This document shows positions 40,750 through 45,049 of a stretch of 52,731 bases of DNA, piece by piece. The notes beneath the pieces are model-generated. The model searched no databases. It saw only the letters and a program-made list of their open reading frames with translations, and was not told the DNA's origin. Each line of letters begins with the position of its first letter. Positions within the stretch are counted from its first letter, which is position 1. A program made the translations under genes and the position numbers. Source of the stretch: Acidobacteriota bacterium. GTDB lineage: Bacteria > Acidobacteriota > Vicinamibacteria > Vicinamibacterales > CAVVIG01. The stretch lies in NCBI GenBank assembly GCA_017883165.1, contig JADGOC010000008.1:1-52731 (forward strand), read 5' to 3'.

Positions 40750-41751
40750 CTATAGCATGGCGCGGCAGAGCGCATCGGTGAACTCGGTAGTCGTCGCCGA
40801 GCCCTTGAGATCGCGCGTGCGCGTCGCGCCCGACGAAAGCACAGTCTCCAGCGCCTTCATGATGCGGTCGGCGGCCGCCACTTCGTCAATGTGGCGCAGC
40901 ATCAGTACCGCCGAGAGCAGCAGCGCCGTCGGGTTCGCGACGTTTTTCCCCGCGATGTCGGGCGCGCTGCCGTGCACCGCTTCGAATACGGCCGTCTCCG
41001 CCCCGAGATTCGCCGAGCCGACGACGCCAAGGCCGCCGACCAGCCCCGCGCACAAGTCCGACACGATGTCGCCGTAGAGATTCGGCATCACCAGCACGTC
41101 GAACTGCCCGGGGTTCATCACCAGGTGCATGCACGCGGCGTCGACGATGCGTTCGTCGTACACGATTTCGGGATATTGGGGCGCCGTCGCGCGCACGCAT
41201 GAGAGAAAGAGGCCGTCGCCGAGCTTCATGATGTTCGCCTTGTGAATCGCCGTCACGCGCTTGCGGCCATGGCGGCGCGCGTAGTCGAACGCGAACTGCG
41301 CGATTCGCGTCGACGCACGCTCCGTGATGATCTTCAGGCTCTCGACGACGCCCGGCACGACCTCGTGCTCGAGGCCCGCGTACAGATCCTCCGTGTTCTC
41401 GCGGACGATCACGAGATCCACGCCCTCGAAGCGGGCCGGCACGCCAGGAAGGTTCCACACGGGCCGCAGGTTCGCGTACAACTCGAGCGCCTTGCGCAGC
41501 CCGACGTTCACGCTCGAGAACCCTTCGCCGATCGGCGTCGACACGGGCCCCTTTAGCGCGACCGTGTTCCGGCGGATGGAGTCGATCAACTCGACCGGCA
41601 GCGCCTTCCCGGTGCGCTCAAATGCCTGCACGCCGGCGATGTGGCGTTCCCACTCGATGGACACGCCAGCCGCGGCGACGACGCGCAGGACCGCCGCCGT
41701 CACTTCGGGGCCGATGCCGTCGCCGGGAATCAGCGTAATCGTGTGGCGCAT
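40750..41751 (-). CDS. Isocitrate/isopropylmalate dehydrogenase family (NAD-IDH-like)
   Basis: About 333 residues. ITLIPGDGIGPEV opens the fold; GPVSTPIGEGFSSVNVGLRKALELYANLRPV is close to NAD-dependent isocitrate dehydrogenases and homoisocitrate dehydrogenases. VRENTEDLYAGLEHEV, KANIMKLGDGLFL, NLYGDIVSDLCAGLVGGLG and FEAVHGSAPDIAGKNVANP are further motifs. The VRENTED segment and ANLRPV favour isocitrate over isopropylmalate. I use ATG 41751; GTG 41760 overlaps the upstream stop and is an alternative. Confidence 0.88.
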   Translation of the reverse strand: MRHTITLIPGDGIGPEVTAAVLRVVAAAGVSIEWERHIAGVQAFERTGKALPVELIDSIRRNTVALKGPVSTPIGEGFSSVNVGLRKALELYANLRPVWNLPGVPARFEGVDLVIVRENTEDLYAGLEHEVVPGVVESLKIITERASTRIAQFAFDYARRHGRKRVTAIHKANIMKLGDGLFLSCVRATAPQYPEIVYDERIVDAACMHLVMNPGQFDVLVMPNLYGDIVSDLCAGLVGGLGVVGSANLGAETAVFEAVHGSAPDIAGKNVANPTALLLSAVLMLRHIDEVAAADRIMKALETVLSSGATRTRDLKGSATTTEFTDALCRAML

Positions 41752-41752
41752 G

Positions 41753-42241
41753 TCACTCACGGATGTACCAGGAAAGCAGCACCAAGCCGAGCACGATGTC
41801 GACGGTCATGAGCCTCGTCGACATCGCGTGCAGCGTATCGAATCGCATGCGGAGCGGATCGGTCTCCGGCAATGCGTTGATCGGGCCGGACACGCGCGAC
41901 TGAAGCTGGGCGATCTCGCGGGCGACCGGCACGCCGGCGTACGCCGCCACCGCCAGCATCGTCAACACGATCGCGGCGCGCGGAAGAAAGGCGCGCGGCG
42001 AAGGGCCGACGAATTTCATCATCAGCAGGCACAGAAGGATGACCGCGCCCGACCCGTACGCAAGCAGGTAGAAGCGCCGCAGGATGTCGCCGAAGAGCGC
42101 GCCGGCGAGCACGCGGCCGGTAGCCGGGTCCTGCGCCTGCAGCACCCGGAACGTCGCTGGAGCAACGACCAGGCCGAGCACAATCATCCCACCGAGCCAG
42201 ACGACGAGGGCCAGAAGCGCGACGAACCGGATGGCGGACAT
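41753..42241 (-). CDS. DUF4149 membrane protein
   Basis: 162 residues with about four hydrophobic helices (residues 6-30, 52-75, 84-102 and 142-160). LGGMIVLGLVVAPATFRVL is the typical DUF4149 N-terminus. The family is of unknown function. The ATG at 42241 has a TATAAT ending 6 nt upstream and no useful Shine-Dalgarno. It heads a minus-strand run with the IDH-like, PlsB-like and proline dehydrogenase genes. Confidence 0.8.
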   Translation of the reverse strand: MSAIRFVALLALVVWLGGMIVLGLVVAPATFRVLQAQDPATGRVLAGALFGDILRRFYLLAYGSGAVILLCLLMMKFVGPSPRAFLPRAAIVLTMLAVAAYAGVPVAREIAQLQSRVSGPINALPETDPLRMRFDTLHAMSTRLMTVDIVLGLVLLSWYIRE

Positions 42242-42247
42242 CCCTTT

Positions 42248-42255
42248 ATTATAAT
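42248..42255. promoter_or_regulatory. Shared palindromic divergent -10 (ATTATAAT)
   Basis: ATTATAAT is an exact palindrome. Read on the plus strand it gives TATAAT at 42250-42255, 7 nt before the TTG at 42263. Read on the minus strand it gives TATAAT at 42253-42248, 6 nt before the ATG at 42241. Both genes are predicted leaderless. Confidence 0.6.
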
Positions 42256-42262
42256 TGCAGGC

Positions 42263-43159
42263 TTGTTGTATTACGGCGGACCAGGATGGGAGGAGCGCGC
42301 CATCGAGTGGCTGATCGCGCGCATTCTCGACGCGCTGGCGCGCGGCGACGCGGTCGGTCCGCTCGCACTGACGCTGCTGCTGCGCCGTTACTGCACGACT
42401 GATCGCGCGGAGCTCGCTGACGCTCTCGGGCCGGCGCTTGCTGCCGCCGCCGCGCGCGAGTTTGATAACCCGGTGCCTGCCGACGCCGACTGGCTGACGC
42501 TGTTCGTCGAGAGCGCCGCGGTCTCCGACGATGCGCGATTGCGCGGCGCGGGGGAGCGGTTGATCGCGGCGCTGCGGCGGCAGTGGGCCGCAGTGGGAGT
42601 GGAGCCAGCCACTTGGTCCATTGGCGCGTGTCTGATGGCCGCGGATCTGGTCGATCCGCGAGAGCTCATCCCCGTCGCCATCGACGAGCTCGAGCGCATC
42701 GTCGGCGCCGTGTACCGGCCCGGCGTAGGCCTCGGAAACCTCGTGACTGTGCCGGAGGCCGTACGGGGTCTCCTTGGCGATCACGTCCGCGCCGCGTCGG
42801 CGCTGCTGACAGCCCACGAGCGCACGGGCCGGCTGCCGTACGCGATGCTGGCCGAAGAGCTGATGCAGTTCATGCTGCGGACGATGTCGGACACGTACGA
42901 AGGCGGTTTCGTCGATCGGTTCGGGGACTCGTGCAACAAGTCGCTCATCCTCAACTGCGAGGCGGCGCGGGTGCTGATGCGGCTAGCCGCGCTGCACGGC
43001 ACGCCGGCGTATCGCAACGCGGCCGTGCTGGCTCCCGGCGTCGACTACGCGGAGGACGCCGCTCGCGTTCTGGTGTCGTTCGAACCGGAATTTCGCGATC
43101 ACGGCGTGAATGCCGCCGTGTTCGGTATCGCGCTCACCGAGTGGGCCCGTCGCTCGTGA
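42263..43159 (+). CDS. Helical protein of unknown function, possible alpha/alpha-hairpin fold
   Basis: 298 residues from a TTG (42263, or 42266). No ATG exists near the N-terminus, and the promoter at 42250-42255 fits this start. The sequence is Ala/Leu rich and helical. The segment around residue 180-225 (LLGDHVRAASALLTAHERTG, MLRTMSDTYEGGFVD) followed by NCEAARVLMRLAALHGTPAYRNAA resembles the hairpins of the DUF255/YyaL and N-acylglucosamine-2-epimerase groups, but the thioredoxin domain of YyaL is absent. I cannot assign a reaction. It is 15 bp before transketolase on the same strand. Confidence 0.72.
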   Translation: MLYYGGPGWEERAIEWLIARILDALARGDAVGPLALTLLLRRYCTTDRAELADALGPALAAAAAREFDNPVPADADWLTLFVESAAVSDDARLRGAGERLIAALRRQWAAVGVEPATWSIGACLMAADLVDPRELIPVAIDELERIVGAVYRPGVGLGNLVTVPEAVRGLLGDHVRAASALLTAHERTGRLPYAMLAEELMQFMLRTMSDTYEGGFVDRFGDSCNKSLILNCEAARVLMRLAALHGTPAYRNAAVLAPGVDYAEDAARVLVSFEPEFRDHGVNAAVFGIALTEWARRS

Positions 43160-43174
43160 TAAACTTTGCGTCCC

Positions 43175-45049
43175 ATGCCTGTTGATCGATCGTCTCTGAT
43201 TCCTGCCCTCACCAACGTCGCCACGAGACTCCGCATCGACTCGCTCACGTCGACCTCGGAGGCCGGCAGCGGCCATCCGACGAGTTGCTGTTCCGCCGCC
43301 GATCTGGTTGCAGCGCTCTTTTTCGCCGAGATGCGCTTCGACCCGAAAGATCCGCACAACGTGGACAGCGATCGCTTCATCCTCTCCAAGGGGCACGCCG
43401 CGCCGCTGTTGTACGCCGCGTGGGCGGAGTCGGGCGCCTTCGATCGCAGCGAGCTCCTGAAGCTTCGCACGCTCGGGTCCGATCTCGAAGGCCATCCGAC
43501 GCCGCGTCTGCCGTTTGTCGACGTCGCGACCGGCTCGCTCGGGCAGGGTATTTGCGCCGGCATCGGCTGCGCGCTGAATGCGCGCCGCATCAAGTCGGAC
43601 TACCGGACGTTTGTGTTGCTCGGCGACGGCGAATCCGCCGAAGGGTCCGTCTGGGAAGCGGCTGACGTCGCGGCGATGGACGGCCTCGACAACCTGTGCG
43701 GCCTGACCGACGTCAACGCGCTCGGCCAGAGCCGCGCGACGATGTGGCAGCACGACATGGAGCAGTTCGCCCGCCGCTGGCGCGCGTTCGGCTGGCACGC
43801 GATCGTCATCGACGGCCACGATCTCAATGCGATCCTCGATGCGTACGCCGAGGCGCGGCAGACCAAAGGGCAGCCGACGATGATCCTGGCGCGCACGATC
43901 AAAGGCAAAGGCGTGTCGTGGGTCGAAGGGAAAGACGGCTGGCACGGCAAGGCGTTCAAGAAAGGTGATGAGCTCGATCGCGCGCTCGCCGAGCTCGACA
44001 AACAGTTCGTGCCGGCGGCGGGCGGCGTGGATCTCGCTCGGCAGATTCCGAAGCCGGCCGCCGTCGCGCGTCCGGCGGTGACGCCGAAGCCCATCGCGCC
44101 GCCCACCTACAAGCTCGGCGAAGAGGTCGCGACGCGCGAAGCGTACGGCGCGGCGATCGCCAAGCTCGCGACTGCCGATCCGCGCGTGGTCGCGCTCGAC
44201 GCCGACGTGAAGAACTCGACCTTCAGCGACAAGTTCGAGAAAGTCGCGCCGGAGCGATTCTTTGAGAACTTCATCGCCGAGCAGGTGATGATCGGCGCCT
44301 CGATGGGGCTCGCCGCGCGCGGCGCGATCCCGTTTCCTTCGACCTTCGCGTGCTTTCTCTCGCGCGCCTACGACTTCATCCGCATGGCGGCGATCAGCGG
44401 CGTCGGCATCAAGATGGCCGGCTCGCACGCCGGCGTGTCGATCGGCGAGGACGGACCGTCGCAGATGGCGCTCGAGGATCTCGCGATGTGCCGCGCGGAG
44501 CCGAACATCACCGTGCTGTACCCGAGCGACGGCGTCAGCGCCGAGCGGCTCGTGGCGCTCGCCGCGTACCATCCGGGCCCGGCGTACATCCGCACGAGCC
44601 GCCCCAAGACGCCCGTCATCTACTCGAATGAGGAGACATTCGCGGTCGGCGGGCTCAAAGTGCTGCGGGAGAGCGCGAACGACGTCGCCACCGTGATCGG
44701 CGCCGGCATCACGGTCTTCGAAGCGCTGAAAGCGTACGATCAGCTGAAAACGGCGGGGATGCCGATTCGGGTGATCGATCTGTATTCAGTGTCGCCCGTC
44801 GATCGCGAGGGGCTCGTCGCCGCCGGCCGCGCCACCGGCGGACGCCTCATCACCGTCGAGGATCACTATGCCGCGGGCGGCATCGGCGACGCCGTGGCGG
44901 AGGCGGTGGCGGACGCGGGGCTGACCGTGCACCGGCTCGCCGTCCGCGAGATTCCGCGGAGCGGCAAGCCGGACGAGCTGCTCGATCGCTTCGGCATTTC
45001 AGCGGCCCATATCGCTGACGCCGTGCGCGCGCTGGCGGGACGCCGCTGA
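43175..45049 (+). CDS. tkt: Transketolase, animal-type
   Basis: 624 residues, a single-chain thiamine-diphosphate enzyme of the pentose phosphate pathway. It carries AGSGHPTSCCSAADL, RFILSKGHAAPLLYAAWAE, FVDVATGSLGQG, LLGDGESAEGSVWEA (Mg/ThDP motif), TRKAYG-like and SIGEDGPSQMALEDLAMC. Length and sequence match human TKT far better than E. coli TktA (about 660 residues). TAAACT at 43160-43165 ends 9 nt before the ATG; no Shine-Dalgarno is seen. Its stop is 1 bp from the end of the Spy-like gene. Confidence 0.93.
   Translation: MPVDRSSLIPALTNVATRLRIDSLTSTSEAGSGHPTSCCSAADLVAALFFAEMRFDPKDPHNVDSDRFILSKGHAAPLLYAAWAESGAFDRSELLKLRTLGSDLEGHPTPRLPFVDVATGSLGQGICAGIGCALNARRIKSDYRTFVLLGDGESAEGSVWEAADVAAMDGLDNLCGLTDVNALGQSRATMWQHDMEQFARRWRAFGWHAIVIDGHDLNAILDAYAEARQTKGQPTMILARTIKGKGVSWVEGKDGWHGKAFKKGDELDRALAELDKQFVPAAGGVDLARQIPKPAAVARPAVTPKPIAPPTYKLGEEVATREAYGAAIAKLATADPRVVALDADVKNSTFSDKFEKVAPERFFENFIAEQVMIGASMGLAARGAIPFPSTFACFLSRAYDFIRMAAISGVGIKMAGSHAGVSIGEDGPSQMALEDLAMCRAEPNITVLYPSDGVSAERLVALAAYHPGPAYIRTSRPKTPVIYSNEETFAVGGLKVLRESANDVATVIGAGITVFEALKAYDQLKTAGMPIRVIDLYSVSPVDREGLVAAGRATGGRLITVEDHYAAGGIGDAVAEAVADAGLTVHRLAVREIPRSGKPDELLDRFGISAAHIADAVRALAGRR

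Follow-up and report, generated by a model that had tools for sequence, protein, structure and literature searches.

A conserved palindromic -10 element as a probable shared promoter of two divergent genes in an order of Acidobacteriota

Can a single 8-bp site serve as the -10 element of two divergent genes, and would such sharing make their expression mutually exclusive? The question is raised by a short gene junction in a contig of an Acidobacteriota bacterium of the order Vicinamibacterales (JADGOC010000008.1, positions 1 to 52,731; this whole stretch is hereafter the window). The sequence ATTATAAT at 42248-42255 is a perfect 8-bp palindrome, in which TATAAT is readable on both strands. On the minus strand TATAAT (42253-42248) is followed by AAAGGG (6 nt) and by the ATG (42241-42239) of a DUF4149 gene; on the plus strand TATAAT (42250-42255) is followed by TGCAGGC (7 nt) and by the TTG (42263) of a 298-aa ORF. 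The two -10 elements are distinct hexamers, which overlap by 4 bp (TATA). Counted from the first T of the hexamer, the distance to the start codon is 12 nt on the left and 13 nt on the right, and 21 nt lie between the two start codons. The palindrome, as placed in the earlier note, is correct to the base, and the distances of 6, 7 and 21 nt given there agree with the sequence. We suggest, with a probability of about 0.85, that a bidirectional promoter lies at this junction, its -10 being common to both directions and a -35 not discernible; it would produce the leaderless mRNA of a DUF4149 operon to the left and an almost leaderless mRNA to the right.

The leftward operon starts with the DUF4149 membrane-protein gene (41753-42241, minus strand, 162 aa), recognised from its reading frame and a PF13664 match (E=9e-8), and continues downstream with a gene of the isocitrate/isopropylmalate dehydrogenase family (40750-41751, minus strand; PF00180, E=1e-104, and synteny). 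To the right the 298-aa ORF (42263-43159, plus strand; start at TTG 42263 or 42266) is followed by a transketolase gene (43175-45049, plus strand; PF00456/PF02779/PF02780). Between the 298-aa ORF, whose stop codon it follows immediately, and the transketolase ATG, 9 nt further on, the sequence TAAACT (43160-43165, plus strand) is probably the transketolase's own -10 and thus a probable second promoter; it precedes transketolase in relatives too.

The right-hand protein, listed as unknown in the earlier note, can now be identified as a DUF255/YyaL-type protein that lacks the thioredoxin domain, i.e. as the toroid half of such a protein. The identification follows from fold and sequence together. 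The AlphaFold model is all-helical (mean pLDDT 86) and in fold most resembles (alpha/alpha) toroids of the GH76 and GH88 types as well as 7tkv, a DUF255 protein from Brucella; the sequence corresponds to the C-terminal portion of the DUF255 proteins that other families have at this locus. The DUF255/YyaL-type proteins carry an N-terminal thioredoxin domain (Thioredox_DsbH, PF03190), which is missing from the window's family: the window protein has no PF03190 match, whereas in order-level relatives the protein from this position has it. The full DUF255 protein is found there in other families of the order. A Padloc search gave no match.

The palindrome is not a chance feature. It occurs once in the window, where dinucleotide shuffles expect 0.03 copies. 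The whole 4.24 Mb genome contains 4 copies, a number similar to that of the reversed control (3), and the other three have no clear gene on both sides. Most genomes of the same family keep the gene order dehydrogenase, DUF4149, divergence, toroid protein, transketolase, and the exact ATTATAAT is present in 17 of the 18 readable same-family junctions (13 genera), while the spacers on either side of it vary freely. The leftward ATG stands 6, occasionally 7, nt after its TATAAT. The rightward start is found 5-9 nt after the -10 and its codon changes: ATG at N6 in two relatives (L011, L002), GTG at N6 in two (L021, L027) and TTG at N6-N7 in eight (L004, L006-L009, L012, L014, L015). The earlier note had proposed to check whether palindrome and spacing are conserved in relatives: the palindrome is, and the distances range over N6-N7 on the left and N5-N9 on the right. 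In the single exception, L005, the element has come apart into two -10s (ATTATA...TATAAT), and each of them is spaced from its gene as in a leaderless promoter. In six relatives (L004, L008, L012, L021, L027, L002) DUF4149 is gone and the palindrome is retained, with a dehydrogenase or acyltransferase gene as the left neighbour.

Two of these junctions have peculiarities of their own. On the leftward strand near the palindrome of L012 a short ATGATCCTCACG... resembles a remnant of the DUF4149 start, which suggests that DUF4149 may have been deleted there with its -10 and start surviving. In the junction of L013 (L057, 1437-1485) the palindrome is immediately followed by an 8-bp repeat unit, TTGCAGGA as read on the rightward strand, which is present in six identical copies, so that TTG occurs in every frame. 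Every copy contributes a TTG, and eight is not divisible by three; a gain or loss of copies could therefore shift the rightward frame.

Leaderless promoters are common in this family, so that the specificity of the palindrome has to be judged against them. With a crude ORF set that includes many false starts, a generic profile of TANNNT before ATG had no distinct peak over 221 kb of the window's genome; for this reason the family-wide count of TATAAT-N6-ATG was used. It gives 204 sites against 13 for the reversed control in 27 family genomes, hence leaderless promoters of this form are general in the family. The palindromic version, ATTATAAT-N6-ATG, has 16 sites in the family genomes, 13 of them at the DUF4149 junction and 3 elsewhere; the palindrome therefore belongs to the junction and not to leaderless promoters generally. 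These counts bear on a reading in which only the leftward TATAAT (42248-42253, minus strand) works as a one-way DUF4149 promoter, the AT in front of it being a local preference and the palindrome incidental. In its favour, junctions with an altered right half still have the leftward TATAAT-N6-ATG. However, the AT extension is present at 11/12 junction sites as against a mere 3 of the roughly 190 TATAAT-N6-ATG sites elsewhere in the family (p~1e-14, with no ancestry correction), rightward starts follow the palindrome by 5-9 nt in many genera, and L005 keeps two -10s. We consider the one-way promoter very improbable, also because across the order the presence of the extension goes with whether a rightward -10 is needed, as follows.

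Beyond the family, the palindrome is unchanged in several other families of the order, and among 70 regions upstream of DUF4149 homologues from the order, most have TATAAT-N6-ATG. The right-hand partner is either the DUF255 protein (PF03190) or transketolase directly. With family f8 set aside, the palindrome is found in 19/21 junctions with toroid/DUF255 partners versus 11/30 with transketolase partners (p=1.3e-4, no ancestry correction). Where DUF4149 faces transketolase, 10 of the 11 palindromic junctions are without another rightward -10, and 17 of the 19 non-palindromic junctions have one (p=2e-5, uncorrected for ancestry). The -10 class was chosen after inspection of the sequences; three broader definitions of it agree, with p from 2e-5 to 4e-4, and a narrower one, used before them, which excluded TAGACT, gives p=0.06. 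Longer spacers do not explain the association, because even the broad definition is estimated to match by chance about once per 2-3 kb at the given base composition. Related genomes are not independent, and the p-values therefore overstate the evidence. With this reservation on ancestry, and with family f8 departing, the comparisons of partners and of other -10s indicate that both directions are under selection. The rightward hexamer (42250-42255, plus strand) is kept where it is the only rightward -10, and the palindrome appears to become one-sided mostly where the right-hand gene owns another putative promoter.

Family f8 has its own variant. In L108, L109, L111, L116, L118, L122 and L030 the start codons are exactly 21 nt apart and ATTATACG, once GTTATACG, replaces the palindrome. 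In ATTATACG the rightward -7T is missing. Either the rightward promoter of this family is weak, or it may use some unrecognised element.

Could the palindrome be the operator of a dimeric regulator, its place at both -10s being secondary? An exact and deeply conserved palindrome would look alike, and there is weak conservation of 1-2 bases on either side (TC..T). At odds with an operator are the half-site of just 4 bp, the centre, which fits the -10 spacing on both sides, the split in L005, the loss of one side where another -10 exists, and the mere 4 genomic copies. We regard an operator as extremely unlikely. A search for a conserved activator or other operator site at the junction revealed none, and the search for a -35 or extended -10 on either side of the palindrome found no conserved signal beyond coding constraint. 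A sigma70 scan with the -35 required gave no match. A terminator-like hairpin at 42229-42243 was discarded as being at chance level (1 found, 1.0 expected).

Hence, we return to the shared promoter and propose the following course of events. The palindrome would be a sigma70-type bidirectional core, in which RNA polymerase engages TATAAT in either orientation. Recognition probably relies on the -10 alone, which matches the consensus perfectly, and upstream of either -10 the DNA belongs to the coding sequence of the opposite gene. With a distance of 7 bp assumed between the end of the -10 and both transcription starts, these would be at 42241 and 42262, 21 bp apart. The leftward start (minus strand) would then coincide, exactly or nearly, with the A of the DUF4149 ATG, at a spacing that is enriched family-wide, and the DUF4149-dehydrogenase mRNA would be leaderless. 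The rightward start (plus strand) would precede the TTG of the toroid-protein gene by some 1-2 nt, at 42261-42262: the predicted +1 (42262) is a C and the nearest purine is G42261.

The earlier note took both genes to be leaderless. In leaderless bacterial genes a TANNNT stands some 12 bp ahead of the start codon, and Acidobacteria are among the groups listed (PMC3160421). The junction shares with these genes the -10 distance (12/13 nt) and has no SD at usable spacing; it differs in that two starts share one -10 and the right one is TTG, not ATG/GTG. On the left, the claim stands: TATAAT-N6-ATG is found in the window and in most homologues, the window's AAAGGG abuts the ATG, and the spacers of DUF4149 in relatives are mostly non-SD. 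A leaderless DUF4149 is thus well supported by the arrangement of the sequence. On the right the -10 lies at a similar distance (TATAAT-N7-TTG), with TTG in the window and ATG or GTG in some relatives, and the gene is likely to be nearly leaderless, with a predicted leader of 1-2 nt. The ATG and GTG that relatives carry at the same place suggest that the rightward start site is right.

The bidirectional promoter could also be real with rightward translation beginning farther downstream, at an SD-led codon. In mycobacteria, the only group in which the rule of an ATG or GTG start at +1 was measured, TTG is a poor, inefficient leaderless start (PMC4633059). Some relatives have downstream in-frame ATGs, one of them (L013) with an AGGAAG-like SD, and in relatives with the transketolase partner the start, at 23-56 nt, is preceded by an SD (GGAGG). 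Yet in the window the only in-frame starts are TTG 42263 and 42266 until GTG 42473, which is about 70 codons inside the conserved protein; at least 6 relatives are likewise without a downstream ATG, and in others an ATG or GTG stands at precisely N6. We consider a downstream start unlikely and keep to the start at the TTG.

The preferred reading places the junction close to a described class. Bidirectional promoters with a symmetrical -10 (Warman, Grainger; PMC12825309, PMC10268837) have the -10 on both strands, a weak or no -35, starts on opposite strands within about 7-25 bp and steric exclusion of the second polymerase. Here one -10 position is readable on both strands, and the starts are predicted within this distance. 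The common start spacings in E. coli are 18, 10 and 23 bp, and we count the 21 bp predicted here against the likeness. Unlike the E. coli class, the junction has an exact 8-bp palindrome, both mRNAs are protein-coding and predicted to be leaderless or nearly so, and the arrangement is conserved order-wide.

The interpretation in the earlier note is thus supported in part. That one -10 drives two genes has strong comparative support, since the order-wide conservation, the pattern of half-loss and the split in L005 all favour a shared promoter. The proposed exclusivity has two sides. One position serves two promoters, and therefore one polymerase at a time would be accommodated there, which is physically sound; that polymerase in one orientation blocks the other is stated generally for bidirectional promoters (PMC12825309). 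Mutually exclusive expression does not follow. In E. coli, five bidirectional promoters were tested, and none had enough basal activity for competition to play a part; competition appears on activation, when stimulating one direction can repress the other (PMC12825309). Because of this low basal competition, and with no activator or -35 visible here, "mutually exclusive genes" is too strong. The likely result would be constitutive transcription in both directions, in loose balance, and not a switch.

It may still be asked whether exclusion itself is selected, so that polymerase competition toggles the two operons or locks their ratio. The sharing is kept over many genera, and the repression on one-way activation in E. 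coli would fit. We find this improbable, given that basal E. coli bidirectional promoters show no measurable competition (PMC12825309), that the -10s of L005 are separated, that transketolase partners escape to their own -10, and that no conserved activator or -35 site was seen.

Similar arrangements are found elsewhere in the phylum. The pattern CAY-N6-ATTATAAT-N7-DTG has 37 matches in 34/396 phylum genomes versus 5 for the reversed control, and many AT-rich matches are no gene pairs; the N6/N6 version is rare (7 sites in 6/396 phylum genomes). In 7 of 8 sampled genomes of family f33 the palindrome lies between a radical-SAM gene and a MutY-type glycosylase gene (PF00730 + NUDIX_4), in the layout CAT-N6-ATTATAAT-N7-GTG/ATG. 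At these loci (L189-L195, about 1501-1527) the palindromic -10 thus stands between two divergent, apparently leaderless genes. Single further gene pairs around the palindrome occur in three genomes (G086, G092, G273). Two members of the order (L219, L217) also have palindromic -10s between divergent genes, a 499-aa protein/amidohydrolase-like pair and a GHMP kinase-like/NagZ-like pair, named by eye from the sequence.

Bacterial bidirectional promoters are known mostly from start-site maps of E. coli and Salmonella; many of the divergent RNAs are non-coding, and their purpose is hard to judge. The class itself is known, and its doubly leaderless, exactly palindromic and order-wide form is new. 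The palindrome appears to be used as a two-way core promoter in many genera of a group of soil and groundwater Acidobacteria. The natural experiments, namely the half lost when another -10 exists and the split into two -10s, argue that both directions matter. Speculatively, and with rather low confidence, -10 sharing may be selected, competition at one 8-bp site fixing the ratio of DUF4149-dehydrogenase to toroid protein and doubly leaderless cores being recurrent in Acidobacteriota; if so, there would be almost no room for other regulation at the shared core. A minimal divergent promoter with 21 nt between starts and no visible -35 is a template for testing coupling by polymerase competition. 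The junction is also suited to asking whether UUG starts a nearly leaderless mRNA outside mycobacteria.
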